A stretch of 64,000 bases of DNA from positions 50,737,825 through 50,801,824 of the forward strand of contig OY997591.1 of the NCBI GenBank assembly GCA_963921825.1. Reading direction: 5' to 3'. This stretch comes from Erodium maritimum. Lineage: Eukaryota > Streptophyta > Magnoliopsida > Geraniales > Geraniaceae. The position numbers and the translations under genes are program-made. Each line of letters opens with the position of its first letter. The stretch's first letter is position 1. Positions 5,143-64,000 of the stretch are shown here, piece by piece. The notes below the pieces were generated by a model. It was not told the DNA's origin, ran no database searches, and saw nothing but the letters and a program-made list of their open reading frames with translations.

Positions 5143-6345
5143 CTAGATTTTTAATACCAAGGCCTCCATCCTTCTTTGGCCTACACACATTGTTCCATTT
5201 AACTTTGCAGAAAGCTCTAGGGGTAGATGTACCATGCCATAAAATCTCATTTGCCAAGACTCCATTTCTTTCAAGACTTTCGTTGGAGCCTTTATAACTG
5301 AGAATAAATATAGTGGGAGTGCACTCAAGGTTGATTCGATAAGAGTTATTCTCCCCCCTAGTGGTAGGAGTTTTGCCTCCCATAGTCCTAGTGCATTTTT
5401 GAATTTCTGAAAAATCATGTCCCAGGTTTTGATCTTTTTAGGATTTGCTCCTAAGGGAAACCCAAGATGAGTAATTGGTAATTTTCCAGAAGCACAGTCC
5501 AGGGTCTGTAATATAGAATGATCCTCATCTTCCTCAAGGTTCATTAGAATGGCTATAGATTTATCATAATTCACTTCTAACCCAGAAGATACCTTGAACA
5601 TTGTTAATGCTAACTTGAGGCACATAGCACCCTCATCAGAGGCTTGGATAAAGAAGATAGTGTCATCTACAAATTGTAGATGGGAGATTGTTGGGCCAAC
5701 TTGATTAAAGTGAATGCCTTTAAAGAGGCCTTGCTGTAGACTGGCCTTTATAATCTGGTTTAGACCCTCAGCTGCAATTACAAACAATAATGGAGAAAGA
5801 GCACATCCTTGTCTAAATCCTCTGGATAATTGGAAGTCGGGACTTGGTGATCCATTGACTAGAATTGAGACATTTTCCCTGAGACATGAAATTATCCAAA
5901 ACTTCCATTTCCTACCAAACCCCATCCTGGTCATTATTTTCATGAGATAACTCCAGCTAACATTGTCAAAGGCTTTCTCAAAGTCTGCTTTAAATATAAT
6001 GGCCTTTTGCTTTACAGATTTGATGTAGTCCACAACCTTAAAAGCTATAAGAATCCCATCAATAATCTTTCTTTGTTGTATAAAACCATATTGTTCCTCC
6101 CTTACAATATAGCTGATAACCTGTTTGAGTCTGGAAGATAGAAGTTTGGATAGAATTTTGTATGCTCCACCCATAAGACTTATAGGCCTATAGTCATCAA
6201 ATGTCAATGGGGCTTTGTTTTTTGGAATCAAGGTAAGGGAAGAAGAATTTAAGCCTTTTCCAAGCTGGCCAGTGTGATAGAAGCTGTAGATAAAATTCAA
6301 GAGGTCTTCCTTTATAATTGTCCAGCATACTTGGAAGAATTTCAA
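5143..6345 (-). pseudogene. LINE reverse transcriptase domain
   Basis: This is the longest open stretch of the LINE, 400 codons. It contains the reverse transcriptase palm motifs in order: YRPISLMGGAYKILSKLL, motif A FKADFEKAFDNVSW with its catalytic Asp, motif B RGFRQGCALSPLLF, and motif C FVDD in place of the usual FADD. A thumb region with LPLGGRITLIESTLSALP follows. In life it would copy the element RNA at the nicked target in the nucleus. The catalytic aspartates are kept, but flanking frames are broken, so the whole protein cannot be made. Confidence 0.92.
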
Positions 6346-44434: not shown

Positions 44435-46022
44435 TACAGGTATAAAGCTCCTATTTTTCTTGATGTATACACATCATCCTCTCATTATCATATTTGATAA
44501 AGTTAAAACTTCCCCATCAAATGGATAATATAAGTATGTAAATGTCACTACTAGCTGCAGGTCGTGTCTTTTATCTAATTTGATCACAAACCAACCATAC
44601 CGAGTAATGCGCAAGTAACCGATTAATTGGATGCCCTAATTATAATTAAAAGGATTGTTGGTCATAATAACAAGCAGTAGTCCTGATAATATTATTGAAG
44701 ATAATGGGAGACTAATTCAATTACTTGGTAAAACACGCATTTCTTCGTAGACTTTTGCAACTAACAATAATATTAAATATTAATCGCAACTAAACAATTA
44801 ATTAAGACAAGCATCGCATTGCAAATTTCAATTGAAGGCAACGATCAGAAGTTGACAGTTGCACGACATACCGCACTCGTCGCGCTACTTGTCTTGCTTG
44901 TTCATACAATTAAGGAAGGATTCATTCGACTGAAGTACTTCTCCCCACAACGGCTCGTTACTCTTCTCAATCAATAAGCCCAACAGTTGAGTTGGTGCTA
45001 GTTTGGTGGGCTTGGGCCTGGTAGAAGTTGGCTAATTAAGCTAGGTTTTATTTGAGTTGAGAAATGCGTATTAGGTCGTCTAAATGTAGACATGATGAAT
45101 TGGGCTGTGTCTGAAATTGAGCTGGCCTTCTTTATATTCGTAAGACCATGATGACCATCTTTGAGGAAAATGATTAGAATATTGGAGGACCGATTCAATT
45201 AAAAATTCAAACTGATAGATCATAGGTTGAAGATGAATCGCTTCGAAGAGGGGATGAGCCATTGAGAAGATAGATAAAAGCTGACTTACTAGGGAAAAAT
45301 TTGATAAATTGATTTTTTTTTAGAGAGAGTGGGGTTTGAACTCGGGTCCATGAGGTACAAAAATCTGGTACCATACTAAAAACCAACTCAACTAAAAACT
45401 CAAACTGATGGTTCAAGGCCTAATTGTAATTATATTCTAATAGGTTAAGCTTTAAGAGCATCAATAATCGACAGTAGAGAGAAGGGCATCGATTAGTCCA
45501 AAAATGATCCTTAGGTCAAGCGTTGTTGGATACCAATCGAGCAAAAGGGATCGAAATCGGTCAACGTGAGTATCGGCCAACATCGACGTTAAGAGGTCGG
45601 TTAATTCTAGCATGTCCTAATAGCAAGCTTACACATGGCACCAATTTTCTTTTTTGAAAAATAAAACAATCATTAGGACCAACGATCATATATTCAAATT
45701 TCATATATTAGATTACGGAAAAAAATCAACAAAATATTAATTTCCCTACAAACACTCGAACAAGCATCTTGAACGTGGACATAAAGAAAAGGACATGTAT
45801 ATGATATATTAATGTTGTCGATGAAGTTAGGGGAAGTTTCGTCAGTTGGCTCGGAAGGGTACAATTCACAAGAGCGTGATGAACTTCATCGATTTTGCAT
45901 TGAAATTCCTAGACTAGGAACTGTAGACGTTTTTTGGGTTCAAGGACGGATAAGAAAGTTGGGCATAAGTCGTGCTGAGGAGGCATTATGCAAACTTTGT
46001 TTGAAGCAATTTGTGTCACAAA
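44435..46022. other. Unassigned spacer left of CACTA-2
   Basis: Mostly AT-rich. A possible tRNA-derived SINE lies within it (see separate entry). An open stretch starting at 45812 contains EVSSVGSEGYNSQERDELHR and runs into the CACTA-2 end. It could be the edge of an interrupted host gene, but I do not recognise it. Confidence 0.35.
45310..45470 (-). repeat. Possible tRNA-derived SINE
   Basis: The minus strand has a pol III B-box-like GTTCAAACC (in GAGTTCAAACCCC), about 30 bp upstream of it TATGGTACCAGA, and a short A-run after CTCTCTCT. A similar piece (CAATTAAAAATTCAAACTGAT) lies at about 45197-45217. The layout fits a plant SINE, but no target duplication was confirmed. Confidence 0.3.
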
Positions 46023-46039
46023 CACTACAAGGGATTGTT

Positions 46040-46440
46040 ACTTCTAAGACTAACATATGGCGTCTTAGAGGTTAGTTATGGCGCCTTAGAAGTTAGCGCT
46101 AAAACTTCTAACACGCCAGAGTCGGGCGTGTTAGTGAATTTCCTGAAATAAACTTCTAAGAAGTCATATACAACGTCTTAGAGGTTTTAACACTTCTACA
46201 ACGCAAAATATGGCGTCTTAGAGATTTTAAGGCTTCTATAACATCATATTTGGCGTCTTAGAGGTAATAAAACCTCTAAGACGCCATTGTTGATGTGGTA
46301 GAAGTTGTTAAACCTCTAAAACGCTTTAATGGACGTTGTATAAGAGTTAAAACCTCTTAGACGCCTTAGATGACGTATTAGAGGTAATACCACCTCTATA
46401 CTTCTCCAACGGGATAGATGTGTTGAAGTAGTATGTATGG
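46040..46440. repeat. Subterminal repeats of CACTA-2
   Basis: About ten copies, in both orientations, of a 12-15 bp motif with core CTCTAAGACGCCAT / ATGGCGTCTTAGAG, with variants such as CTCTAAAACGC and ATTTGGCGTCTTAGAGG. Such arrays next to the CACTA termini are the known binding sites of the TnpA-like protein in En/Spm. Confidence 0.85.
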
Positions 46441-46504
46441 ACGTTGTAGAAGAAAAACGCAGAAATTAAAAAAAGTATTCATAAAACCACTACACCAGGT
46501 TTGC

Positions 46505-46830
46505 GCTTCTACGATAGGGTCTTTTTATATAGTCGTAGAAGTCAACAACTTCTACGACTCCATACCATGTAGTCGTAGTAGAAAAATCTTCTACGACTAC
46601 ATTTAATGGAGTCGTAGAGGCACTACACCTCTACGACTCCATTGGATGGAGTCGTAGAAGATCAGTGCCTCTATGACTCCATTTAATGCAGTCATAGAGG
46701 TTCGGTGCCTCTACGACTACATAAAATGGAGTCGTAGAGGTTCGGTGCATCTACGACTCCACTGAATGGAGTCGGAGAAGATCAGTGCCTCTACGACTCC
46801 ATTGAATGAAGTCGTAAAGGTTCCCGTATT
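46505..46830. repeat. Left subterminal repeats of CACTA-1
   Basis: More than ten copies in both orientations of CTCTACGACTCCAT / ATGGAGTCGTAGAG, with variants CTACGACTACAT and GAGTCGGAGAAG. The spacing between inverted neighbours is short, so pairs can form hairpins. The motif differs from that of CACTA-2 by a few bases. Confidence 0.9.
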
Positions 46831-47224
46831 TAAAACCAAACCAACTCCTTTTAAAACCAAACAAACACCTATGCAAGTCCAATCGTATATGTATTGAATC
46901 GGCTGGTGGAGAACTTGAAAGATGTCAGTGTCAGAATTTGACAAAACCCTAGCATTTTTTGGTTTGTAGAGGGTCAAATTCGTACTTTTAGATTCCGGGG
47001 TTGTATTTCCGTTTTTGGGGGGGTTTTTTTATTTCCTTTATTTGTATTGGGACTTTGGGATTACTTTCCTTAGGTTTAGGGTTTATTTTAGGGTTTAAGG
47101 TTTAGTTTTTAGGGTTTAACTGTAAATCAGTTTTTCTGATTTTATAAACATTGTACCAGCACTTGTGTGCTTATTGTACCAGCACCCGTGTATATGAACT
47201 ACCAGCACATGTGTGCGTTGTGTA

Positions 47225-47400
47225 TGCGGTTTGAGAAAATATCAGCCCCGGTTTGAGATGAATATTCTCAGACAAAAAATTTCTCAAACCAGAATAGTTA
47301 TTTTCTCAAAGTAAAATGTTGTCTTCTCAAACTTTTTTTTCCTCAAACTGAGATGCTATTTTCTCAAACCATGTTCGCGATTTTTTCAAACGAGATTTGA
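47225..47400. repeat. Cluster of TTCTCAAAC motifs in CACTA-1
   Basis: About eight copies of TTCTCAAAC or close variants (TTTGAGAAA, CCTCAAACT) at intervals of 15-30 bp. They are preceded at 47155-47220 by three units of ACCAGCACnnGTGTG. The function is unknown. It may be the edge of a further insertion. Confidence 0.7.
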
Positions 47401-47447
47401 GGTTCGCTGGTCCACAACGTAAGGGAGGTTCGCATGTGATTGTCTCC

Positions 47448-47495
<48 letters not shown>

Positions 47496-47497
47496 GG

Positions 47498-47972
47498 TAG
47501 CTATCCAGTAAAAACCACCCTTATTGTGCAAACTACAAACCAATCTAAGCCACAGGATGCGGTCAAAGTGACGTCAGCAGAGCGCGTGCGATGCTGACAC
47601 GTGGCCGCTTCGCGCGAGTCTCTGCCCGCGCGCGTGCGCGTGTTGTCCACGCGCGCGCGGGGGTGGTGATCGTTTACAAGCACGGTGCTAATAGTTTAGT
47701 ACAAATGCAAACTATCAGCACTGTGCGCGCAAACTATCAACATCGTGCTACGCAAACTATCAGTGTTGTGCGCGCGTGCATCAGCAGCGCGCTCGCCCAC
47801 GTGTCAGCGCCTGGTGAGTTTGTAGTTTGCACAATAAAGTGCGGTGTTTTATATATTTATTGCCCACGTGTCAGCATCTGGTGCGCTCTGCCGACATCAC
47901 TTTGGGGGATCCTATGGCTCAGATTGGTTCGTAGTTTGGACAATAAGGGGTGGTTTGTACCTGATACCAACC
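47498..47972. mobile_element. Fold-back MITE copy 1, in a (TA)n tract
   Basis: The left end GGTAGCTATCCAGTAAAAACC and the right end GGTTTGTACCTGATACC form inverted repeats of about 100 bp that share CTTATTGTGCAAACTAC. Flanks are (TA)n on both sides (plus (GA)n on the left). The body is rich in CGCG and contains CACGTG cores (GACACGTGGC, CCACGTGTC). It belongs to the same family as 58219-58542. An internal piece repeats the right end, so this copy looks rearranged. Confidence 0.78.
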
Positions 47973-48024
47973 CTATATATATACATATATACATACATAT
48001 ATCATTCGACGTTACTCAAACAAA

Positions 48025-48112
48025 TATTTATTTATCTTCTACACATGTATTCTATGTTGACGATCCGAATTTGGGTAGACATTACAAGGTTGTGCGCATT
48101 CAACGTTAATTC
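48025..48112 (+). pseudogene. TNP2/DUF4216 remnant of CACTA-1
   Basis: The peptide HVFYVDDPNLGRHYKVV matches the DUF4216 region that follows the TNP2 transposase core in plant CACTA elements. The equivalent on the minus strand at about 56450-56520 reads VLYVDDPKLG then HYKIVNKV. It lies upstream of the Transposase_24 gene in the same orientation, as expected. The rest of TNP2 is missing. Confidence 0.78.
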
Positions 48113-48147
48113 TCTTTATTTCTAAATTAATAATTATTGTTACTCAC

Positions 48148-49100
48148 TACTAGGGGTGGGCAAAAAAATCCACACCGCATGCAACCGACCGAAACCGACC
48201 GTTTCTACCACCGGAAAAACCGGAACCGGTGGTTTCTGGTGCGTTCGTGGTGCCAAAATCGCCAAACCGGTAATAATTTTGTCGGAGGCCGGTTTATAAT
48301 ATCCCAAACCGGTGGATCCAAAAAACCGACCGCACATTGGGCTATTAAGGCACTGCCCAACCCCCAAGCCATTAACACAAATAGAATAAGCTGTAGATAA
48401 ATTATATTTAAATAAATAAAGAAAGCTTATAATATATATTTAATACATATGATTATTTATTAAATAGGACAAAAATAGCCCATAAGTCTTTGCAAACTAG
48501 TCAGAGTCTAATTCAATGGTAATGGTCTATTCTCTGCTTAATTTAATATTTATATATAAATTAATAAAATCATCATTATCTAATCGACTTTACTACACGT
48601 ATCATCTCAGTCCTTATCAAACCAACACATCACCCTCTTAGTAAATATCAACCGCTAATTATAGGGTTCAATCTCAATCCTCCACTTCATTTGGAACCGT
48701 TCTGTTTCTCCCTCATTTCACAAGCGGCCGTTTCACTCTTGCATCTCAACTGGTAGATATGTACTCTAGTATATGGCAACAAACTATTATTGAGCCTGCT
48801 GGGACTTACTCCACTCACCGATAGGATCAGCTTCCTCACAGAGTAAGTCTAAGTCATCGATCTGTCACCATACATATTTGTTTTTTTTTTGTGTTACACA
48901 TGTACACTACTTGATTCTTATCTGGTAATTTAAATTTTGTGGCTTATGACGGGCAAATTGCTTTCTACACTGGTCCTGCTGGTAATTGTCTGATTCACTC
49001 TTCTGCAATTTCTATGGAGTTTTAGACTAGTATTGATGATATGATCTGTTTTTTTGTTCAGTAAGGGTGGGTGGTCGGCTCAGACCGCAAAACCGACTGA
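48148..49100 (+). mobile_element. hAT-like sequence inside CACTA-1
   Basis: CTAGGGGTGGGCAAAA at 48148 is the classic terminus of plant hAT elements, followed by GACCGAAACCGACCG and ACCGGTGG-type repeats. A second similar start, TAAGGGTGGGTGG with AAAACCGAC, occurs at about 49063 in the same orientation. No matching 3' terminus or 8-bp duplication was found, so boundaries and copy number are uncertain. Confidence 0.45.
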
Positions 49101-49330
49101 AAATCGTGGTGAAAGGAATTTTTTTAATTTCAATTACTTTCCTTATCCCAATCATTTAATCGTAATTATTTTATATTTTATATATACCATTAAAAAACAA
49201 TTAGAATTATCCTCTTTCTCTTTTCACCTTCGTTTCTTTCTTTCTCTCTCTATAAGTCATAACATGGATAACAGAGGGTTCTACAAAGGAGTAAAGTGCA
49301 CCACAGAAATCGTCCACCAATCCATAACTA

Positions 49331-51214
49331 TTGATTTTCCCTCTCAATTATTTTACTTTCCCACTCAATTCTCTCTCGTTTATAGAAACCCCCTCTTCTC
49401 TTTCTCTTATTATGTTTTCCTCTCACAAAATTTCTCTCTCTCGTCTTAGTCCCGAGCTCACCCCGACGACCGTCCAGCCTCCGTCTCAGTCACGAGCTCC
49501 CTCCGGGCCCGACGACGTGATTCTCTATGCAGCACCCAGGACCAAAAGCAACTCCAGTTCATCTTCTTCTCCGACCAAGGTAAATGAGTTAAGGGTTTAG
49601 ATTAATTTGTTCACATGTTGATTCTAGCTTATTTGATGCAGACTTTAGGGGTTAGGGTTTTCTCTATTTGCAATGTGCCTCCTTCATTTGAGCATTTCTT
49701 GTTTATTCTATGATTAATTTATATCAAATTTATTTGTTTATCTATTACTCTTTTACATCAAAGAAATGAGATGGAAGTATGATTTGCTGGTTTTGATCTT
49801 GTATTTGGGTGAAATGAGTAATTTATTCAAATTTCATTGTATTAGCATTACTTTCATTGTAGTACTCTAGTATTAATAGAAGTGGACCATTATGTTTACT
49901 GGTAATGTGCCTGAGATAAGTATGTTACACTCGTTTTTGCCAAGTGTATCGTTGATGTGAAGCCAAACAATTATTTGTGTCGTTTCAGTTTCTATGTAAC
50001 TCTTACATTGAATAGTCATCAGTCAGCCTAATCAGTTCAACCAATATTAGGCGAGACAATTCCCTTCTAAATAACTCAATTAACAAAACAGAAGCTTGAA
50101 ATGAATATACGTGTAAGAATTTGTCGGTGTAAGCATTGTTCATTTGTTTAATAATTGTGCCTATATTAATATGTAATTGTTTTGTAGTGTTTATATCTCT
50201 ATACCGACGATGACGACGAAGTCTGCGAGTATATCCAATCAGAATGTCGACATCGGTACAAGGATTGGAAGTCCAAGATCAATACGGCCAGGATCGCCCA
50301 AATCAAGAAAAAGGCGACCCCAACAAATCAAAACCTGAAGATCTCAGTTCCAGTGGAGTTCAATCGTCTTGACGAGTGGAAGTGGCTTTCCGACCACTTT
50401 GATTCCTCGGCATTCAAGGTAATGAATTAAATAATTTCCATACATAAATACTTTATTTTACTATTCTAATTAATTAACGTAAGTCGTATTTTGCAAATGT
50501 TAGGCCAAGTCTGACAAAGCCGTAGTGGCGCGGAAAAGGTGAAGACTAAGCAACGAGGCGGGTCTTGTTCGATACGCGACCATGCGGCAGCGATCTTGGC
50601 GAAGGATGCCTCTAACAAGACGCCGATATTGGCTGCTTGCGCAAAAGTGTTCCCCCCAAAGGACAAGAACAAGTACAACCGTAGCAAAGGGGTAAGTATA
50701 TTTTATTTCAATACATAATTTGCATTTCTTTTCCTTATTTCAATCATTTCCTTAATCTAAGATTTAGAATTTTTTTATTCTCAGCGAAAGATTGTCCAAG
50801 CAATGAAAGAAGTGCAGGAATCGTGCGACATCTCATTCCTCAGCCCTGTGTCGGACTTTTTTCAGGCTGAAGCCTTAGCTACCAAGTTGGGCTTATTAAG
50901 GAAGGGGAGCACGCAGCCGGGATGTGGCAAGATTCATTCTCCCAACGCCCAAGGAGAAGAGGTCTTCCTCGACCACCGCTTATGTGGAGGTTTCTCGAGG
51001 GACGCAGGATTCGGTTGCGCATATCGAGGACCGAGTGAGGGTGGATATAGAGTGTCGTTTCAAGGAACAAGAGGAACAGATGACGGCCAGTCAAGCAACG
51101 ATGGAAGCCAAACAAGCGGAGTTGGATGAGTCATTGAGAAAGGTGACGGAGATCCTGTCCGACATTATGCATCCACAACCTAACAGTGATGGAACAAGAT
51201 CGAGTAACACATGA
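49331..51214 (+). pseudogene. Transposase_24-type (TnpA-like) gene of CACTA-1
   Basis: Proposed exons: a first exon ending at 49579 (AGSPTK-like end SSSSSPTK, donor GTAAATG), 50188-50418, 50504-50691 and 50785-51214. Exon 2 has LYLYTDDDDEVCEYIQSECR and DEWKWLSDHFDSSAFK. Exon 3 has GGSCSIRDHAAAIL. Exon 4 has QAEALATKLGLLRKGSTQPG, the hallmark of the plant En/Spm Transposase_24 family, and a C-terminal coiled coil (KQAELDESLRKVTEIL). In En/Spm the partner of the transposase binds the subterminal repeats. Exon 3 (near 50535) and exon 4 (near 50925) each need a frame change, so this copy looks dead. The same exon plan is seen at 52135-54144. Confidence 0.82.
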
Positions 51215-51404
51215 CGATCTTATGTAGTGACAATTACTTTTGCTTTTTTGGTTTGAATTATGTTTCGTATTGTGGATATTAATATTTTCATGATTGACAT
51301 TACTAGTGCGTAGTAAATTGTTACTATTGGCTTATTATTAATCGAATTCATTTTATATAAGTTTTGCACGTTTTATAAATTTTTTTTAAAATATTGTATT
51401 AATT

Positions 51405-51960
51405 TTCTACGACTGCATAAATAATCTCTGCGACTACAACGATGGAGTTGTAGAGGATTGCATATCACAACCTCTACGACCATGTATATGTAGTCGTCAA
51501 GGTGTCAACCATTTGCGACACCATTTATGGAGTCGTAGAGGATTATATATCATAACTTCTATGACCACAAACATGAAGTCGCAGAGGTAAGACATACCAC
51601 CCTCTACGACACCATAGATGTAGCCACATAGGATTGAAAGCTCGACGACTACATCTACATGGTCGTAGAGGTTATGATATAAAATCCTCTTCGACTCCAT
51701 CGTTGTAGTCGTAGAGGTTATGACATATTACTTCTCTGACTCCATCTTTGACGTCATAGGAGTTATTTATCTCTACGACGCCATATAAGTCGTCGTAGAG
51801 GCTTCAACTACTACGACAACAATGTATGTAGTCGTAGAAGTGAAATGGCGACGACCTACAGTGCGACTCCGGGTTATGGAGTCGTAGAAGTTACTAAGAA
51901 ACTTCTACGACTACATAAGAGGCCTCTGCGACTCCATAATGGAGTAGCAGGAGCTACTTT
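51405..51960. repeat. Right subterminal repeats of CACTA-1
   Basis: The same motif family as the left end (TAGTCGTAGAGG, CTACGACTCCA), about 15-18 copies over some 550 bp, more diverged than on the left. It ends at the terminal inverted repeat at 51971. Confidence 0.9.
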
Positions 51961-52134
51961 TCCTTGTAGTGAACGTGTACCCGAACGTGCAAAACCTGCA
52001 TAAACGTGCATCCAAGCCGTCACATTCATAACTAAAACATAGTTATATATATACACACAGTAGTACAAAAGTTATACGCATCAAAAGTCTCCAAAAGTTA
52101 TACGCACCAAATGTCTCCAACAGTGTCCTAACAG

Positions 52135-54144
52135 TTATAATACAAACTTCGACCCGTCCTTACCCTTCCCATCCATACCCGTCCTGTCCTTTGTCTGCCC
52201 TTCTTGATGAATAATACGTTGTTGCAATAGCGGGACATATGCGTGTAAGTTTCTTACGATGTCATTTACCTTTTTGAGTGACTCGGCCACATCCGCTTCC
52301 CTCAATGCCATCCGTTTCTCCAAGGTCGTTGTGGTCAAGGCCAGCTGTTCCTTCTCTAGCTTCATTTGGTTCGCCAATTGTTCCTTCTCCTGCTTCAATT
52401 GCTCCCTCATTTGGTTCGCCAGCTGGTCCCTCTCATCCCTCAATTGCTCCCTCATTTGGTTCTTCAACCGTTCCTTCTCTTCCCTCAGTTGGTTCGCAAT
52501 CTCCTCCTTCATTTTCTCCTCAAGTCACGCTTGTACTCTTTCTTCGGCGGCGGTCGAGGTGGAACACACGCCATCGACTCCGGCGTCGAGAGGACGACTC
52601 AGTTGCCACATCCTACTTGCATGCTGCCCTTCCTCGGTTTGCCTAACTTGGCAGCTAGTGCCTCTGCCTGAACCAGGGTCGGGACAACACGGGTCGAGAC
52701 GGTTGAAGAGATGTCGGTCGATCGTCGGACTTCACGGATCATAGCAATGAGCTTTTTCTGAGCATAAACAAACCAGGATTTTGACAAAAAAATGATGGAA
52801 CGTCGCAAAATATATATTAGAGTTAATGGAATAAAATGCGCTAACCACTTTGATGCGGTTGGCCTTCTTCCTGTCGGTTAGAGGGAAGGCTTTCAGGTTG
52901 GCTTGCAGGAGCGGCGTCGGGTTGGAGGGTCTGCTCTTCGCGATCTTCTCAGCGTGGGTTGCGATCGGGCAGGACCCAACTCGGTGCACGGTAGTGACAT
53001 TTTTCTTGGCAGCTGATGCCTGCTTCGACTTGTCCTACCATTTGAGCAAAAAACATATAAATTAATTGAATAATTAGAAAAAAGTAATTAAAAATATATT
53101 TACGAATATTATTATTTACCTTGAAGTCCTTGGAATCGAAGTGCTTGCAAAGCCATGTCCACTCTTCCAAACGACATATGAACTCATTCGGCGGGTTGAT
53201 ATGCTGGGTCTTCATTTCCTCAATTCTGGCGATGCGGGCCCGGTTAATGTAAGATTTCCATGCCTAGAACCGACCTTGACACTCAATCTGGATCCAATTA
53301 CAAGTCTTGTGTTCGTCTTCTTCATAGAGATAGAGTTCCTACAAAGAAAACCATGGGAAATTAATTAAGAAAAGATTTGAAACCCAAAATAAAAATACTT
53401 ACACGGAAAAATACTTACCATAATCTTCCTTTGTAAATCAAATCGATGTCGTTGTTCAGTTTGATCCCACGTGGGTTTCAACATGGGAAAGTGTGCCCGG
53501 ATGAGACACCCGATATCTTGGACCACTCTTTGGTGGTCGATTGTTAAGTCGTCCGGGCAGAAAACCCATTTCTTCTCGGGGTCATATTCGAGCCGAAACT
53601 TTGCCTTCCTTGTATGCACCAGTTTACGTGTCTGGGAGTTCGACACGAATCCCCGTTTACCACCCCTCTTCTTTTTAGTAGAGGCGGTCTCACTCTCGAG
53701 AGTGGCAGGAACGGCCTCACTCTCGGAAATGGCAGCATCGGCCTCACTCTCGACAGTGGTGTCAACGCCCTCACTGTCTTCGTCAAACACAAAGTCGGAC
53801 ATGTCGTCGGACTCGTTCTCGCTTCCGGACACGTCAAAGTATATTTCCACTGTTTTAGCACGTTTGGTAGGCTTCCTCTTTTTCAGCGCCTTACGGACGT
53901 ACCAAACATCGTTTGCAGCAGTGGAGCTTGACGTCATTCCCGGACTAGGTCCCCCTTGTAATGTAGGAGTCGTAGATGGTATAACCAACGCACGCATCGC
54001 CGGGTATAGTATTTGAGGGGAGTTGGGTTGCGAAGTATCTGCAGTCCCCTCAGCCTAGGCGGCGGGGGCAGTGACAGAGGTAGTAGTGGGCGTAGTTTCG
54101 AGGGCCTAATCCTCAGGCATTGGAACTCTCGTCTTTGGCGGCAT
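52135..54144 (-). pseudogene. Transposase_24-type (TnpA-like) gene of CACTA-2
   Basis: Four proposed exons, 54144-53419, 53338-53120, 53034-52846 and 52757-52135, have canonical GT/AG borders. Exon 1 starts MPPKTRVPMPED and carries an acidic, Ser-rich region (SGSENESDDMSDFVFDEDSE) and a basic patch (TKKKRGGKRG). Exon 2 has LYLYEEDEHKTCNWIQIECQ and EEWTWLCKHFDSKDFK. Exon 4 has QAEALAAKLGKPRKGSMQVG and then a long coiled coil (LANQMREQLKQEKEQL). Stops in exon 1 (two, near 54105 and 54055), in exon 2 and in exon 4 show it is inactive. It is homologous to the CACTA-1 gene exon by exon, but clearly diverged. Confidence 0.84.
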
Positions 54145-55119
54145 CCTACATTTTAAAACGAAAAACATTCTTTAAAAAAAGTAACACACATAAATTAACA
54201 AACATATAAAAATTGAAATTTTAGTAAACATAACATGTCCCGAGACCCCTAATAAAGACACCAACCTCTTTTCCCCAACATTTTTAACTGTCAAAACAGT
54301 TACACTTGAAATGGGTGAATCAACCAAGCTTCACAAAAAGAAAGGGCCTTTTCCATGTTTTGGTCCCTTAAAAAGAATTGAAGTAACATGATTTTGTTTT
54401 CAAGAGTTAACAACTAACTTCAAGAGTCAATTTCCAAACCAACAGTTTTGACAAACTATTTATTGCACCGCTTATAACGAAAAAAACAGCTTCAAGCACA
54501 AAATCTAATGAAACATTAAGCAGTGAAGTGCAATGCAAAGAAAACTCTATTCATATGTATACAAAACAAACTGTATATTATTTCCAAGTAACACCACCAG
54601 TTTTATACTAAACCGGATTGAAATCTCCCCGTTCCTCCTATACCAACTATATAAAAGGAATTCATAGGCATCTCATCCAACATGTCTCACCATCATCAAA
54701 TAAATTTGAAAAATAAAATCAGATATGCACCCAGTTACATGTAGAATATAAAAAAGCATGTTGCACTAAGTACTGAAGGTTTCAAACTTGAAATAATTAA
54801 GAAACAATAAGATTGTGCATAAATGAATGTCAGTACATAGACATACACAGGGATTGAATACGCAAATTGCTAATTGCATTTCAACACACATGAAAGAGCA
54901 AAACGGATATTTATGAAGGCCATACATCATGACACATATTTGTGTTAGATCAGAGATAGAGAAGGACACAGAGATGATATTACTTCAAAAAAAAGTCCAA
55001 TATAAAAACCACATGTAACAACCACCCAATTTTAACGGTAACAACCCTTGTAAAGAAGACCTTACTTCTGCCGGCGATGGGGTTTTGTTTGCCGCCGTCG
55101 GCGAGCTCGTGACTGAGAG

Positions 55120-55340
55120 AGGGACGTCGGCGTGGACCGGTGGTGGCGTGGACCGGTGGTGGCATGGATCGGTGGTGGCGCGCACGGTGGTGGCGTGGAC
55201 CGGTGGTGGCGTGGACCGGTGGTGGCATGGATCGGTGGTGGCGCGCACGGTGGTGGCGTGGACCGGTGGTGGCGTGGACCGGTGGTGGCGCGGACGGTGG
55301 TGGCGTGGACGGAGTTGGCGTGGACCGGTGCTGGCGTGGC
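55120..55340. repeat. GC-rich minisatellite upstream of the CACTA-2 gene
   Basis: Tandem units built from GTGGACCGGTGGTGGC and GCGCACGGTGGTGGC (15-18 bp, grouped in larger units of about 63 bp) occur some 12 times. It lies 1 kb upstream of the minus-strand gene start, near a CT-rich leader. All six reading frames stay largely open across it because of the repeat, so the ORFs there are not genes. A run of 19 G follows at about 55401-55419. Confidence 0.85.
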
Positions 55341-55486
55341 AGAGAGGGTCGGTAGAGAGGGTTTGAGTTTGGGGAAACGAAATTAAAACGAGAGAGAGAT
55401 CGGGGGGGGGGGGGGGGGAAATGAAAACGAGAGAGAGAGGGCTGACCTAAATGCCTCTAACTTCTAAGACGCCATATATAAGCTAT

Positions 55487-56130
55487 CTTAGATGTATTTT
55501 AAAAAATAAAATCAAATTTTGAGGACGGGATTAAAATAATTCAAATGTTCATACTCGGGACATTGATACTGGTCTAAAACTATTATTTATGGTCAGTTTT
55601 TATTTAAAACTAGTTATCTAGATGTTCAAAACGACGATACGGTCGGAAAAAAACCTAAATTCCTCACTGTCCTGTTTCCTTCTGCAAGGCCATGGAAAAT
55701 CATCTGCAACGCTATATTAACGTCTTAGATGTATTTTAAAAAATAAAATCAAATTTTGAGGACGAGGGTAAAATAATTCAGAAGTTCATACTCGGGACAT
55801 TGATACTGGCATAAAACTATTTTTACATAAAACTAGTTATCTAAAAGTTCAAAACGACGATACGGTCGAAAAAAAAACCTAAATTCCTCATTGTCCTGTT
55901 TTCCTCTACAACGCCATGAACAATCATCTGCAACGCCATATTAACGTCTTAGATGTATTAAAAAAATATATCAAATTTGTGGACGAGATTAAAATAATTC
56001 AAACGTTCATACTCAGGACATTGATACTGGCCTAAAACTATTATTTATGGTCAATTTTCACATAAAACTAGTAGTTATCAAGATGTTCAAAACGAAGAAA
56101 CGTACGGCCAGAGAAAAATCCTAATTAAAA
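55487..56130. repeat. Three tandem repeats of about 225-240 bp in CACTA-2
   Basis: Units begin near 55487, 55724 and 55948 with CTTAGATGTATT and share TCATACTCGGGACATTGATA-like and AAAACTAGT segments. Each boundary carries AACGCCATATTAACGTCTTA, which resembles the CACTA-2 subterminal motif in inverted pairs. The array separates the Transposase_24 gene from the TNP2 remnant. Confidence 0.85.
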
Positions 56131-56133
56131 TCC

Positions 56134-56530
56134 TTAATCGTTGTCTTCATCATCAGACATTATCTCATCATTAAACTCTTGTTCATCAGAGATGTCATAC
56201 TCTTCCTCGTCTTCGTCATTTAAGAAAAAATCTTCTTCGTGGACGAGATCGTCGTCATCGTCGACATCAATCATCATGGCATCATGATCGTCGTCGTCCT
56301 CGTCGACTTTGTCGACGTCCTCTAATTCTAACACAGCACCTACAGGTTGAATGGATGACACTGGCTCTTGATAAGGTTGAGCAACCTGGTACGATGGCCT
56401 TGGAACAATATATATAGAAAAATCACTGTATTTTTCCCGAGGTGCTACCTTGTTCACGATCTTGTAATGTCAGCCCAATTTTGGATCGTCAACGTAGAGT
56501 ACCTATAAGACAAATAATTACAAAGTTTTT
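56134..56530 (-). pseudogene. TNP2 C-terminal (DUF4216) region of CACTA-2
   Basis: The minus strand reads VLYVDDPKLG, a stop, then HYKIVNKVAPREKYSDFSIY and a very acidic tail (VDEDDDDHDAMMIDVDDDDD). The YVDDPKLG segment is typical of the DUF4216 region after the TNP2 core. The 5' part of the gene is cut off at the (TA)n tract near 56560. In intact elements TNP2 cuts the termini. This copy is dead. Confidence 0.75.
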
Positions 56531-56584
56531 TTTTCCATCGAGAACAACGACGGCGAGTCATATATAAATATATATATATATATA

Positions 56585-58200
56585 CACACGCTCACACGTT
56601 ACCCCTTCTTAAAATGTTACCTGTTACCCAAATCTATACCATTCAATTTTATAATCTAATGGCTGTAATTTTTTACCTTCAATTATCCAAAAAGTAAATA
56701 GAAAAATCTGTAAAAGGATAATTTGGTAAATCCATCTTTTTTTGCTTTATAAATCTGAATTATTAATTTATTATTTGTATATGATTTCAATTGTTTTTCT
56801 ATATTTCGTAATGCATGTTACAGAATGTTACAAATTTTTTTTAACCAAAATTACATATTTTGGAGCCGATGTTACAGATTTTTGGAGCTGAAGTTATAGA
56901 ATTTTGGAGTTGATGTTACAGTTTTTTAACCCGATATTATAGATTCATAAACCTTCGTTTCAAATACATGTGCCCGATATTCCAGATCACTGTACTCAGA
57001 ATCACATATTTTAAAAAACAACGTTACATAATATACTTTGACAGTTATCCATCACCACAATTATAAATAGGGGAACATGTTACAAATAACCACAAGGAAA
57101 GATACATGATTTTCTATAAAATGTTACAAAATCATATACTGATATAAAAAACGTAGACAGACAACTAAAAAATGTTACAAATAAATACCTAGAAAGTTAC
57201 AACATTTTATATAAAATGTTACAAATAATTACACTCAAAGATACAAAATTTTCTGCCAAAATCATAGCCAATCTGAATTGTTCAGATTAGGAACTCTGAT
57301 CTTAATCATCATATTAACAGAACACTAAAACCCAAAAATTATGCATAGACATAGCTCTGATTTTTCCAGATTGTGTATCAATTCGAAATCTGCAACATCG
57401 TTCCAATTCCATTTTACATACCAATTTGAAGCACAACAACTCTACTGGCCGACGAGACTTCCTTTCTTGTAAAACACAACTCAAATAGGAAAAAAATGAT
57501 GACAAGAAATAGTACAACAGAGTCAACAGACACGGTGAGAACCTCAAGTCACGGCGGCGTCGAGTCACAGTGATGTTGCAGCAGTGGGGAACTCAGGCTC
57601 GGTCGGGGAGTGGGGCGGCGGAGATGCGGAGCCGAGGTGCTTCACGGTGGAAGACCGGAGCTCGGGGAGACACGTCCAACTTCAGATCTCGTCCTTGGAG
57701 GCGAGGTCTCGGGGCGTGCATCTTCGCGGTGGTGCTTCCCCGTCACGGATGCTTCTTCCCAGTCGAGGAGGTTTACAGATCAGCCGGCCATGTTCACTGT
57801 TGGCACGACGAGCGGAGGACGAGCTTGGCGACGGCGGCTTCGCACGCAGGAGCAGCTGTAGAGGCGAGGCTTGACATGGGGTGGAGTGTGTGGACGGCGT
57901 GGAGAAGACGGAGCGGCGCTAGAGGTTGGCCGAAATCTGCTGGTCCCGGTGAATGCAAGGGAGTTGTGTGAGGTTTAGGAGAGAAAGTGAGGCGTGTGAT
58001 AGATAGGTTAGGGTTAGTGTGGAGAGGAATTCAAAATTACGTCTCTACCCTTGACTAAAGTGAAATTACAAAAAGAGATTATGGTATTGAGTTATTTACG
58101 TTTGTATGCCATTATATAAAGAACCATTGATTTCAGCTTATCCAATGGTTCACAATCAGGTAACAGGTAACAATGTAAATATGGGTAACACCTGAGTGTG
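56585..58200. mobile_element. TIR element in a (TA)n tract with GC-rich cargo
   Basis: The ends CACACGCTCACACGTTACC (left) and CACACTCAGGTGTTACCC (right, read inward) form imperfect inverted repeats of about 45 bp that share TGTTACCTGTTACC. (TA)n flanks both sides. The left half (56800-57250) is dotted with about ten ATGTTACAAA-type motifs. The right half carries GC-rich cargo (57540-57975) with open stretches that I do not recognise, probably captured host sequence. No transposase is present. Confidence 0.7.
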
Positions 58201-58218
58201 TTCATATATATATATATA

Positions 58219-58542
58219 GTAGCTATCCAGTAAAAACCATCCTTATTGTGCAAACTACGAACCAATCTAAGCCACAGGATGCGGTCAAAGTGACGTCAGC
58301 AGAGCGCGCGCGATGCTGACACGTGGCCGCTTCGCGCGCGTGAGCGTGTTGACCACGCGCGCGCACAGTGCTAATAGTTTGGGCGCACAGTGCTAATAGT
58401 TTAGCACAGTGCCAAACTATTAGCACTGTGCGCCCAAACTATTAGCACTATGCGCGCCACGTGTCAGCAATGTGCGCGCGCGCCCACGTGTCAGCACCTG
58501 GTGAGTTCGTAGTTTGCACAATAAGGGGTGGTTTGTACCTGA
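58219..58542. mobile_element. Fold-back MITE copy 2, in the same (TA)n tract
   Basis: Left end GTAGCTATCCAGTAAAAACC; right end GGTTTGTACCTGA. The inner arms share CTTATTGTGCAAACTACGAA, and (TA)n lies on both sides. The centre is a near-perfect palindrome built from GCACAGTGCTAATAGTTT units (about 58365-58460). It is related to 47498-47972 and keeps the same GACACGTGGCCGC segment. Confidence 0.8.
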
Positions 58543-58716
58543 TATATATATATATAAGATCACTATCAGGTACAAACCTTACAAATTGGTCAGAACGTAG
58601 AACTAATCTCATCCTTTGAAATATTTTATTAGATGGGTGAGATTTATTTTCCAATTTTAACTACACGCGCATAAAAATATGCTGAAATTGGTTTTAATTT
58701 CGAATTTGAGGGTAAT

Positions 58717-59396
58717 TTTCACCTTTTTTTTTCACCAAGTTTACTATTTTTATCTTTCCCGCTTCGTTTCAACTCCGATTTAATTTTTTCTTGCGCCAAT
58801 AATTTTCTTTTTCTAAGACCTATCTATCAAGTAGCATATTGAATACGTTTTGAAGCAATAAAAAAACGATTTACTCAAACAAAAAAGAAGAAATGAAATG
58901 AATGTATGTTTTGTAATTTTCAGTTGTATGTGTACGCTAAACTTAATGTATGTTTATGTTGTAAAATGAAAAGTTATGGGTCGTATACATACAAATGCAT
59001 TTGCAAAAACATACATTAAGGTTAACTTAGACATACATATGAAAATGGTAAAAACATACCTTCAGTTCAACTTACACATACAAATGAAAATGGGAAGAAC
59101 ATACATTATGTTTAGTTTACACATACGCAATTGCGAAAACATAAAAACATACATTAAGTTTAGCCTACACATACAAATGAAAATGACAAGAACATACATT
59201 GATTTTAGCTCCTATAAACATACATTAGGTTTAGCGTACACATACAACTGAAAATTACAAAATATACATTAATTTCGTTTATTTTTTTTTTGTTTGAGTA
59301 AATCGCTTTTTTATTGCTTCAAAACGTATTCAATAAATCGGAGTTGAAACGAAGCGGGAAAGATCAAAATAGTAAACTTGGTGAAAAAAAAACGAA
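58717..59396. repeat. Long inverted repeat around a tandem array
   Basis: The arms (58717-58935 and 59213-59396) share TTTCCCGCTTCGTTTCAACT and GAATACGTTTTGAAGCAATA. The left arm has about 80 bp extra. Between them are about six imperfect units of some 50-55 bp with ACATACATTAAGTTTAG and ACACATACAAATGAAAATG. This is a MITE-like fold-back of unknown superfamily. A possible outer left end at 58556 (ATCACTATCAGGTACAAACC) resembles the end of the neighbouring MITE. Confidence 0.72.
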
Positions 59397-59490
59397 AATA
59401 GCAGCCAATTTCGATTTCCCACTTGAATTTTACGATTTCCCACTATTTTTTTCCCGAAAATACCCACAAACAAAGCGCGTGAGCCTATTT

Positions 59491-62400
59491 TGGAATTTGA
59501 AGACCGCCTCGGTCAAAAGGTTAATTTAATTAAATTTAAATCGTTCGGGGCGGCGAGGTTGAAAATTGGGTCCATTGTTGGTAACGACGTGGTTGAAATT
59601 CGAGTTAATTCTTAATCCGTTTTTTTAAAAAAAAATACACAAGAAAAAAAAAAGAAAAGCAAAAAAAAAAGAGGAAGTCGGACCGGATCAGACCCGACCC
59701 GACCAGCAGGTCCGGCCGAGCCAGACCAACCCGGCCATGTGGTTCGTGGTTGGGCCGTGCGGCCTTTTCCCTACAGTGGCCAAGGAGCCAAGCCCGCCCA
59801 GCTCCCCTATGTGGGCCGCGAAGCCCGTTTACCGTCTGAGGCCCTTTTAGCTTCGACCCGTGTTATTTAAGGCACGAAATAGGGTTTCGAACCGTATTTT
59901 CTTCCCTCAGTCTCGCCGACACTCTTCTCTCTCTCTCCCAACTCCCGATCCGTTCTCTATCTCTGGTCTCAACTCCGGCCGCCATCGCCGGCCGCCCTAT
60001 GTCACGCCCCAATTTCAGCGAACCGAACTCGGGACGCGAACATTTAAAATAAAGAACACTTGAAACCTTTTTCCATTAAATTACTTTAAAATGCCAGTTT
60101 AGTTCAACAAAATAATAATTTACATCTCAAAATAAGTCCCAACAATTGGACAAAACGAGGTACACGTCACTAGACTCAAAATACCCAGAAACCCGCTCCA
60201 AGCTCTTCAGGCTTCAGAAGCTCACCTAGTCCATACTGCGAACCGTACCTGTAGGAAAAGAAGCTAGGGGTGAGCGTTCGCTCACCACCACAGATAACAG
60301 ACTGACTACGGCATACTTAGCAGACAAAGCCGGTGACACCAACAACGACTCAAATGACACCCACACGACCAATACTTTTCTCAACCGACTCAACACTCGG
60401 ACACGTGAAGTAGACCCCACACAACAATTGACGACCTCTTCCAAAGACACGACAGACAACCACGCAACACCCAAGATCACAAAGGATCGCACACCAAACA
60501 AGATCACAAAGGATCGCATACCAGCTGCTCAGTAACCATCTCTGTCTCTCGCCCTTTACCGATCCCAGTAAGGTCAGGCGGTCGACCTGTCGCGCAACTT
60601 CTCCCGATCCCAGTCGGGAGGCTAACCCACAACCTCTCCGCTTCACCCGATCCCAGTCGGGTGGTTAGCCACACCCGCGCGTCCTTCCCCCGATCCCAAT
60701 CGGGGAGCTAGCCCACAACCTCTCCGCTTCTCCCGATCCCAGTCGGGAGGCTAGCTACACCACACAACCTCCACCAGTATCAAGTAACCAATCACAATCA
60801 CAAACAAAGTTCAACAGACAGTAACAACACCAGTCCCAACTCCACATGCACTCAAGGCCACCAAGAAACCAACAACCAAACACGGGTTCAACAACCCTAC
60901 GGGCCCTCATGGCCACCCAAGACACCAACGGTAAAGTACGGGTTCACAACCCCACGGGCACTCACGGCCACCCAAAACACCAATAATAACAACACGGGCT
61001 CTCATGGCCACCCAAGACTCAACAATAATAACACGGACTCTCAAGGCCACCCAAAACTCAACAATAATAATACGGGCTCTCAAGGCCACCCAAAACTCAA
61101 CAATAAAAATACGGGCTCTCAAGGCCACCCAAACTCAACAATAATAACACGGGCTCTTAAGGCCACCCAAAACTCAACAATAATAATACGGGCTCTCAAG
61201 GCCACCCAAACTCAACAATAATAACACGGGCTCTCAAGGCCACCCAAAACTCAACAATAATAACACACAAAAACCTCCGGCATAAACAATGCCTCCAACA
61301 GTCCTAAGATCACTAGTTTCACAAACAACCTCCGGGCATGGTCATATGCCTCCAGTAATTCTAATAACGCTAAGTTCTCTGCTCCTACGACACTACTAAG
61401 TGTCACATGCATTTCCAATAATCGCTACGTTCCCGTATCATGCATTTCTAATATTCGATAACCTAAATAACCCACGACACATCAGTGTCACATGCAATTC
61501 TACAGGTAACTTTCCCTAGTCAGGGCCGAGATCCGGCTACTTTTCTCTACCTTGTATATAACTCCAAAAGTGCTCCACTAAGTCTCGATGTGATCCCAGT
61601 CACTCGCCGAGCTTCCCTTTACCTCGGTCCGCAGCACGATCTAAAAGAACACAATTTTTAAAGCACTTTAAACTCGCAGGAAATAAACCGGAAATTAATA
61701 AACTTAACGCCCAAACGTAACCCCGACAATGTCGATCACTCCTAAACTTCCCAATTGCTCGACATTATCGATAAAGGACCCGTAAAGGCCCGATTCGTCC
61801 GACATGGCGAATATGACCGGGTTTTGTAAATGCCCTTCCGGGGCTCCAAAAATTCCCGTTTTCGTTTCTACGGTCTTAGAATAATTCAAGGAACCCAAGG
61901 CACTTGACGGAATCGAATTCCGACTTCCGAGTCAATTAATTAACATTTAAAGTTTCTAAAACCCGTTAATTACAACTTCTCCAATTTAATTCCAATTTTC
62001 GATTCGGTTAAGGATAAATGGTCCGGAGGACGTTTTAAACCTCCCGAACACTAAACCCGATCACCCGAGCACGTGGGCCCCACCCGACCTACTTGGCCGT
62101 GAGCCCTAGGGTTCAAGGGGGGCTCGGCCACCATGGTGGTGGCTGGTCCCAGCTCCGGCCAGCCACCCCATGGCCGGCCGGCCACCACCCACGGTGGCCG
62201 GAGCTCCTCCCGAGCCTCCGGTCACCGGAAAACGTCATCCTTCCCCTCCAAACACCTCCAAAACGTCTCTAACACCTCCCCAACCTCAATACAACCCTAA
62301 ACTAATCAATTATAACCAAACCCTAACAATTGGAAACTACCAAAACAACGATCGGTTTAGTACAAACCGTAGAGGAAGACGAGGGGAAGACGATTGCTCC

Positions 62401-63790
62401 TTGTCTTGAGACGATCCAATGGTTCAATCTCTCCCAACACTAACCCTTTTCTCCTTCTCTCTCTAAAACACTCTCTTCTTTTCTATTTCAAACAACTAAC
62501 TCATTTTTCTCTTTTTCTTTTTCTTTTAACCACATGTGGCCGGCCACCCTCCCTCACCACTCATTTTCCCCCCAAAACTAACACCACCAATCAGATTCGC
62601 GAAAATCAGACGTTTCGGGCCCTGAACGGGCACTTTTTCCAAGAAAATTACGAAACTTGGCGGGCTACAAGGAAACAGCTCAACAAAGATCGCTGCGACG
62701 ACGGCTAAGCTTTTTGGATCCAAAACGGTCCTTGAATGGACCAAAACGTCGCTCGGTTGACTTTTCCAACGAAAAGTCAACATTTCCCAGATTGATCAGA
62801 AAGTTGCCCCGAGTCCCCCGGAACTCATTTTGGTCGATAACGGGGTCAACTTAAGTCCGGTATGACCCTCGGGGTCAATTTAGGTTAAGTTAAGTGTCTG
62901 TCTTAAAATTTTTAAATTTTCCTGTTTTTCGCAGGTTTGACTGTCGTTGACCGGGAGTGGTTCTTACACCCTCACTCGTCCCTCACCTCCCACTCCCTAT
63001 CTCACCTATTGTCCTCTCCGTTACTCTTACCGACGTCCTCGTCCCGACCCTCGCATCGCTAGCGTCACCCCCTTCTCTCCCGAGTCCACCGACGCTTCTC
63101 TCCCTCTCGTCTTCTCCGATCTGAAGAGTTCTCCGGACACAACCGTGCACGGCCTGAGGCGATTCAACTCGCCGGCGAACTCGTCGGATCTGGGACGGGA
63201 CCTACCGCACCGTCCAGATCTGAAGCGAGAGAGGGCCACCCGTAACCGCCGCGCTCAACCCGTCCGCCTCCGTTGTCTTTTTCCACACGGTGAGCTTTGC
63301 ACCGTGAGACCTCGGCGGGTTTGGTCATCGTCGATGGTTGGCCGGTTTCTGAACCGAATCTCTCTACTTCCCTCTTTCTTCTTGTCTTGAACTTCGTGGA
63401 TCTGGAAACAGGAATCCCTTCGGATCTGAACGTGTTGTTTCAGAAACTAAATAAATTAAAAGAAATGAAATTAAAAATGAAAATAAGTCTTAAAGGTCAA
63501 GTTGTTAGAACGAATTTCAGATATAAAACAGGAAGGGTTTAAAATAAGTTTGGATTTAAAACGGTTTTGAACGTTGGGACGTTGATGAACTGAACGTTAA
63601 ATTGAACTTGGAACGGGACAAAAACTGAACGCAGAATCAGACCTAGAAATCCGTGCATTGGGACCCGTGCCTCGGAAAACGTGCACCGGTTCGTTGCTCG
63701 GGTGCTCGAACCCGATTCGTCGTAATCCCGCTTTTAGCCCGTTCGAGTTCAAAAGACAAATGTCGGTTTTAAAATGTAAATCCTTGCGCG
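59491..63790 (+). mobile_element. Tekay-like LTR fragment, interrupted by solo LTR no. 3
   Basis: The plus-strand pieces 59491-59999 and 62974-63790 together match, reversed, the 12560-14008 half of solo LTR no. 1 (for example GCCCGTTCGAGTTCAAAAGA against its counterpart near 12600). A promoter-like region with GTGTTATTTAAGG and a CTCTCTCTCTCCC leader lies at 59860-59930. The fragment breaks off at about 63790 against CACTA sequence. Broken fossil. Confidence 0.75.
60000..62968 (-). mobile_element. Tekay-like Ty3/gypsy solo LTR no. 3
   Basis: A 2969-bp LTR on the minus strand, from TGTAAGAACCACTCCCGG at 62968 to TTGGGGCGTGACA at 60000. Target duplications are CCCTA (59995-59999) and CCCTC (62969-62973), one mismatch. 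It aligns with solo LTR no. 2 over its whole length. Its tandem region (60545-60765) uses a different unit, CCCGATCCCAGTCGGGAGGC, repeated five to six times. It sits inside an oppositely oriented LTR fragment of a related lineage. Confidence 0.88.
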
Positions 63791-63794
63791 CCCC

Positions 63795-64000
63795 GTAATA
63801 GTACGTCATGTTGTGGCTGTGACGAGAATCCAGGTCATACAAGCATATCGGGCATGTCAAGTAACCCTTAGTCTGAATTCCACCTAACATCCCTAGCCCT
63901 TGTAAATTGCTAATGGTCCACAATACTGCTGCTCGCAACTAGAAGCAATCATCAGCGGACATGTCATGGGTCACAATCCCATCATCCCACAACATGCGGA
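63795..64000 (-). pseudogene. CACTA TNP2 transposase core fragment, at the window edge
   Basis: The minus strand reads LWDDGIVTHDMSADDCF, one stop codon, then LRAAVLWTISNLQGLGMLGG and TKGYLTCPICLYDL. This is the TNP2 pattern L-R-A-x-x-L-W-T-I-N-D-F-x-A-Y-G followed by the C-P-x-C zinc segment. It breaks off at YYYG against LTR sequence. Orientation agrees with CACTA-2, so it is probably the same element. The in-frame stop shows decay. Confidence 0.8.

Follow-up and report, generated by a model that had tools for sequence, protein, structure and literature searches.

The CACTA transposons of Erodium maritimum carry arrays of short repeats near both ends. We find that the class of the repeat motif agrees with the clade of the Transposase_24-type protein encoded by the same element, and that the gap between inverted half-sites depends on the end of the element, being 3 base pairs (bp) at the 5′ end and mostly 2 bp at the 3′ end. 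The analysis concerns a window of 64,000 nucleotides (C4:50737825-50801824 of the 763-Mb genome) with a nested pair of such elements, in which CACTA-1 is inserted in CACTA-2; the latter was followed past the window in extended coordinates (L009). The nested pair itself is of an ordinary kind; what merits attention is the match between motif class and protein clade across the genome, together with the dependence of the spacing on the end.

The subterminal arrays have a common skeleton, YTCTRNNACNNCAT, arranged in inverted pairs with a period near 40 bp. Site scans found 15 sites at the 5′ end and 20 at the 3′ end of CACTA-1, and 21 and 15 at the corresponding ends of CACTA-2, compared with means of 0.4-0.6 and a maximum of 3 in shuffled sequence. 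The majority motif is CTACGACT(C/A)CAT at both ends of CACTA-1 and CTAAGACG(C/T)CAT at both ends of CACTA-2. An A at motif position 5 is present in 15/21 and 10/15 of the sites at the two ends of CACTA-2 and in 0/15 and 0/20 of those of CACTA-1, while a T at position 9 is present in 15/15 and 14/20 sites of CACTA-1 and in 2/21 and 0/15 of CACTA-2. The majority base is the same at both ends of each element. The motifs are nevertheless majority states: C is found at position 5 in 5/21 and 4/15 of the CACTA-2 sites, and position 9 in the 3′ array of CACTA-1 has T 14, G 3, A 2, and C 1 (n = 20), so that T is less frequent there than at the 5′ end (14/20 vs 15/15, p = 0.03). The earlier note on this DNA had assigned different repeat motifs to the two elements; the difference is indeed seen at both ends of each, but as a difference of majority states, with a mixed 3′ array in CACTA-1.

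A search of the genome with PF03004 found nothing, and it found nothing in its control genomes either; the exon 2 proteins of both elements were used as queries in its place. With 150 candidates scored out of 447 and 517, respectively, the two queries yielded 134 and 147 places, so the family is larger than this. Sequence was taken around 44 places, which together with the window pair gives 46 elements, of which 36 are scorable at a threshold of at least 7 sites. In the unrooted protein tree built from exons 2-4, a branch with support of 99-100 separates the 9 rows of the CACTA-2 clade from the rest, and another does so for the 5 rows of the CACTA-1 clade. At position 5, the most frequent base is A in 9/9 elements of the CACTA-2 clade and C in all 27 others. 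For the 20 representatives under 90% identity on which the class tests were made, position 5 requires one change on the tree, and positions 9 and 10 require three each. The six motif classes require 6 changes, compared with 12.8 when the labels are shuffled (p about 2e-4). Motif distance is correlated with protein distance (Mantel r = 0.43, p = 1e-4). These results provide support for the earlier proposal that gene and sites have diverged together. Furthermore, the comparison of protein tree with motifs that had been suggested as a check came out in its favor: among the 36 scored elements, no well-supported clade is split between the two majority motifs, and the classes are not scattered. T at position 9 was also considered as one shared trait, which was rejected because the tree needs three changes at that position.

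Exact patterns were searched over the genome and linked to 139 gene places, within 25 kb on the upstream side and 8 kb on the downstream side of each; these gene places do not include nine tandem copies on C6, 16 of the weakest matches to CACTA-1 exon 2, or the second pieces of split matches. The pattern TCTAAGACGCCAT has 79 places genome-wide, all of them listed, and its reversed-pattern control has 4. Forty-four of the 79 are near a listed gene, and 35 are near none. Of those near a gene, 41 are at CACTA-2-clade genes, and all nine genes of this clade are represented. The other 3 are nearest the nested CACTA-1 gene but lie within the array of CACTA-2, and there are none at the other 129 gene places. 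The pattern CTCTACGACTACAT has 373 places genome-wide (control, 12); among the first 100 of these, 46 are near nine genes, 54 are near none, and none is near the three CACTA-2-clade genes on C1-C2. Some clusters of pattern matches have no gene, for example C3:41330895-41336156, and look like elements without a detected gene. The region C6:67800564-67814072, part of it in L017, contains ten exon 2 matches with identical scores and an exact period of 1477 bp, and is a CACTA fragment that has been tandemly amplified.

The gap within inverted pairs at the 5′ end is 3 bp in 7/7 pairs of CACTA-1 and 10/10 pairs of CACTA-2. At the 3′ end, the 124 pairs in the 35 elements with a called end have gaps of 2 bp (87 pairs), 5 bp (23), 1 bp (12), and 3 bp (2), where the 5-bp gaps are taken to be register effects in near-palindromic motifs. 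Genome-wide dyad searches allowing a gap of 2 or 3 bp listed 107 dyads (for one class, 50 of 65), of which 39 are linked to a gene. All 24 upstream dyads (13 genes) have a gap of 3 bp, and all 15 downstream dyads (10 genes) have a gap of 2 bp; both gaps are present among the 68 unlinked dyads. Counted by gene, the association of gap with gene side has a Fisher p of 9e-7, with the proviso that related copies are not independent, as 6/13 upstream genes belong to the CACTA-2 clade and 5/10 downstream genes are the near-identical L018-L022. At the level of clades, three conform to the gap rule at both ends: CACTA-1, CACTA-2, and L026, the last on the basis of different members (5′ ends from L030 and L044, 3′ ends from L026 and others). 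In a limited literature search, we found no earlier description of CACTA arrays in which the half-site gap depends on the end. Inverted pairs in the 3′ arrays of two elements frequently combine unlike half-sites, joining AAGAC to ACAAC in L015 and AAGAC to ACGAC in L026.

The positions of the sites are also shared at the 3′ end. In the CACTA-2, CACTA-1, L026, L019, and L048 groups, the nine sites nearest the 3′ end lie at matching distances from the terminus; this comparison covers the groups with a called end, so that L033 and others without one fall outside it. The matched sites come from 7/9 elements of the CACTA-2 clade and 4/5 of the CACTA-1 clade, as L011 and L029 (register shifted) and L052 (end not called in the array) were dropped. 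At the matched sites, A at position 5 is found in 7/9 for the CACTA-2 clade, in none for CACTA-1 and L019, in 2 for L026, and in 1/8 for L048. The L026 clade has AAGAC half-sites as a minority, at 2/9 matched positions.

What reads these arrays? We favor a common trans-acting reader over the copying of one end to the other, because a like base preference is found on end-specific scaffolds. By analogy with En/Spm, as described in PMC2613891, the reader would most likely be the second protein of the element, so that the arrays would be docking sites for its own TnpA-like (Transposase_24-type) protein. This protein would probably be bound as a dimer on the inverted half-site pairs every 40 bp. 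As the clades split, the preferred half-site would have shifted, between CTACGAC and CTAAGAC on the CACTA-2-clade branch and, at position 9, between G and T on at least two occasions elsewhere; the tree is unrooted and gives no direction to these changes. The sites at both ends would have followed each shift, and the scaffold would have stayed, with its 3′ site positions, its 40-bp period, and its gaps of 3 bp at the 5′ end and 2 bp at the 3′ end. Taken as a whole, we judge this mechanism to be probable, with selection as the presumed driver of the change, and with binding of the arrays by the Transposase_24-type protein as a putative step suggested by the position of the gene and by En/Spm. 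It is possible, and we put it forward tentatively, that the arrays hold two separable codes. The half-site bases would identify the family and would change at both ends when the protein changes, whereas the spacing, with gaps of 3 bp (5′ end) and 2 bp (3′ end) on a common 40-bp period, would identify the end and persist from clade to clade. A TnpA-like dimer could then distinguish the left end from the right.

Several observations weigh against docking of a co-adapting protein. Ten of the 46 elements have fewer than 7 sites. Within single arrays of the CACTA-2 clade, A at position 5 is found at roughly one half to two thirds of sites (9/17 in L014), and the inner 3′ sites of CACTA-1 have G at position 9, making this array a mixture. 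One CTCTACGACTACAT place is located 15 kb upstream of L031, a gene with a 3′ array that belongs to a different class. The motifs are bound to clades yet not unique: the L026 clade, distant from CACTA-1 on the tree, has CTACGACTACAT, nearly the CTACGACT(A/C)CAT of CACTA-1. L046 and L048 branch beside the CACTA-1 clade and carry G at position 9; therefore, G and T have switched at least twice on the tree. On these two counts the idea of private codes for the sister families is not supported, and reduced cross-mobilization would be a predicted consequence of the divergence. The ratio of nonsynonymous to synonymous substitution (dN/dS) for exon 2 is 0.98 in the CACTA-2 clade. The lower values in the CACTA-1 (0.23), L019 (0.38), and L026 (0.40) clades are consistent with past selection on the protein. 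For exon 3, dN/dS is 0.45-0.80, and the between-clade comparisons are near saturation, with dN > dS in 1/4. Finally, gene and sites are inherited as one linked unit, and some agreement between them is expected for this reason alone. A stronger hint of co-adaptation is the parallel change at the two ends, with the end-specific spacing kept.

The same linkage is the basis of an account by passive co-inheritance and array turnover, in which slippage or conversion homogenizes the units and a spreading variant is inherited with the gene, with no change of specificity. Gene and arrays do form a single linked unit. The 5′ array of CACTA-1 consists of similar 40-bp units (overlapping 114-nt stretches are 77-85% identical), and spacer conservation at matched positions is 0.435 (0.471 over 46 comparisons when one more site is included), not significantly above the 0.400 at unmatched positions (p = 0.10); both observations also count against co-adaptation. 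In PMC5735166, the targets of VANC, an Arabidopsis protein, are described as having changed by tandem-repeat formation. However, the two arrays of CACTA-1, and likewise those of CACTA-2, are kilobases apart and share the majority base yet differ in gap, which argues against simple copying of one end, and independent turnover at each end would have to choose the same variant twice. We consider turnover without a change of specificity to be not very likely. Nonetheless, turnover may have helped to spread the change, because the spacer test is not significant and the 5′ array of CACTA-1 has similar tandem units.

It is unlikely, in our view, that the shared core alone matters for binding, with neutral variable positions and sister families that cross-mobilize freely. 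This would account for the fit of the skeleton to every scorable clade, for the termini CACTACACCAG and CACTACAAGG common to both elements, and for the presence of all four bases at position 9 in the 3′ array of CACTA-1 and of C at position 5 in the CACTA-2 arrays. But at position 5 the majority base goes with the clade, at the matched sites as well as at the two ends, and neutral sites should not switch together. Quite improbable is reading of the arrays by the tnp2 transposase, a host factor, or the silencing machinery, with an incidental agreement with the Transposase_24-type gene: a PDB sequence search with one spliced relative of this gene gave no match, the sole grounds for its DNA binding are its position and En/Spm, and tnp2 could fit as well, the tree here covering the Transposase_24-type exons, but a host factor alone would not explain motif classes that track element clades within one genome.

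The Transposase_24-type genes of CACTA-1 and CACTA-2 align exon by exon, as had been claimed, over exons 2-4, with identities of 49%, 43%, and 49%. Both copies are decayed, with a TAG in exon 2 of CACTA-2 and a frame change in exon 3 of CACTA-1. The gathering cutoff of Pfam Transposase_24 (PF03004), 28.7 bits, is exceeded only by the spliced gene of L011 (33.2 bits), a member of the CACTA-2 clade; L019 (20.9 bits), L028 (18.2 bits), and exon 3 of CACTA-2 alone (13.2 bits) score under it, and Pfam gave no PF03004 match in the CACTA-1 gene pieces. The C-terminal exon of CACTA-2 has no clear counterpart in CACTA-1 (tblastn E = 0.086). TNP2 (DUF4216) remnants had been attributed to both elements. 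CACTA-2 does contain tnp2 (Transposase_21), with scores over the Pfam cutoff (30.3 and 52.6 bits vs 28.6), together with a Transpos_assoc match under its cutoff (23.6 vs 27.7 bits). However, the CACTA-2 frame at 56134-56469 has no Pfam match, and no tnp2 or DUF4216 was found in CACTA-1 by tblastn with the CACTA-2 pieces or by Pfam on 10 CACTA-1 open frames.

The nested arrangement described in the earlier note is borne out by the termini, by the target duplications, and by the insertion point of CACTA-1, 465 bp within the 3′ end of CACTA-2. The termini of CACTA-1 are CACTACACCAGG and, on the reverse strand, CACTACAAGGAA; CACTACACCAG at the 5′ terminus and CACTACAAGG at the 3′ terminus are common to both elements. 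CACTA-2 extends from 46023 to 68419 (extended coordinates; L009:4419), with its 5′ end 4.4 kb past the window and AAA on both sides. Both elements show the features of the CACTA (En/Spm) superfamily, namely CACTA termini, a 3-bp target duplication (AAC or AAA), and subterminal direct and inverted short repeats. CACTA-1 is classed as a defective member because of its termini, its target duplication, its arrays, and its second gene, and both are ordinary, decayed plant CACTA elements from one large group. The features of the window are collected in Table 1.

A palindromic insertion is repeated in CACTA-1 and CACTA-2 (window 47550-47994 and 58219-58551; L009:1517-1934 and 3254-3698), and the other copies are 72-91% identical to the CACTA-1 copy. 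By eye, a TGTCACGCCCC...TTCTTACA stretch inside CACTA-2 (window 60000-62968) is possibly an insertion like a solo long terminal repeat; short words of it reappear about 9 kb on, outside CACTA-2 (L009 about 6178-6313). A GC-rich minisatellite of GGTGGCGTGGACCGGT-like units, also noted by eye, is located at about 55125-55330 of the window, just upstream of the Transposase_24-type gene of CACTA-2.

Table 1. Positions of the CACTA-1 and CACTA-2 features in the window.
Feature	Position	Strand	Description
CACTA-1, whole element	46488..51971	+	Termini and flanking triplets read; AAC target duplication at 46485-46487 and 51972-51974
CACTA-1 5′ array	46527..46820	+	15 sites, CTACGACT(C/A)CAT type; inverted pairs, gap 3, 40-bp period
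CACTA-1 Transposase_24-type exon 2	50191..50418	+	tblastn E 1e-19 vs CACTA-2 exon 2; own-genome search
CACTA-1 Transposase_24-type exon 3	50515..50688	+	tblastn E 1.6e-10; decayed, frame differs from exon start
CACTA-1 Transposase_24-type exon 4	50779..50928	+	tblastn E 1.9e-11
CACTA-1 3′ array	51405..51952	+	20 sites; gap 2 in 5/6 pairs; position 9 mixed
CACTA-2, in-window part	46023..64000	-	Split by CACTA-1; AAA target duplication at 46020-46022
CACTA-2 3′ array	46036..46454	-	15 sites, CTAAGACGCCAT type, minority CTACAACG half-sites; gap 2 in 3/4 pairs
CACTA-2 charged, coiled-coil-like C-terminal exon	52219..52524	-	Open frame; putative reading
CACTA-2 Transposase_24-type exon 4	52602..52763	-	tblastn
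CACTA-2 Transposase_24-type exon 3	52849..53034	-	tblastn; PF03004 13.2 bits, under cutoff
CACTA-2 Transposase_24-type exon 2	53120..53338	-	tblastn; one in-frame TAG
CACTA-2 Transposase_24-type exon 1	53419..54144	-	Limits inferred from open frame
CACTA-2 tnp2 fragment (Transposase_21)	63597..63938, on into L009:1-504	-	Pfam 30.3 and 52.6 bits

VANDALs are Mutator-like elements. In Arabidopsis, according to PMC5735166, the related DNA-binding VANC proteins that they encode and the repeated target motifs have diverged together in one genome. VANC is an anti-silencing protein, and its specificity was determined by chromatin immunoprecipitation sequencing and gel-shift. The co-divergence in the present genome is alike, in that motif class agrees with protein phylogeny, but VANC specificity has been measured, whereas here specificity is a prediction.

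For En/Spm, PMC2613891 describes an element-encoded second protein that binds short repeats near both ends, which are cis-acting for excision and transposition. Short repeats lie near both ends here too; binding is established in maize, whereas for the present elements it is putative. The same study reports maize TnpA to be without similarity to the corresponding proteins of Tam1 and the soybean element. The soybean Tgmt* and Tgm1 elements (Zabala and Vodkin 2008, PMC2613891) belong to different CACTA subfamilies of the same genome, and their subterminal motifs differ at 6 positions. That study deals with the consensus motifs of a few soybean elements, whereas the present data place 36 elements on a protein tree and add the end-specific spacing.

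The soybean authors raised the speed at which the repeats and tnpA-like exons coevolve, and whether the protein of one subfamily acts on the other subfamily (PMC2613891). The present results bear on this question of the cross-use of a protein between CACTA subfamilies and of the pace of repeat and protein coevolution. The genome offers a graded series of six motif classes with genes attached, in which specificity, its change, and cross-mobilization are directly testable, and the end-specific half-site spacing provides a concrete hypothesis for how the two ends of an element may be told apart.

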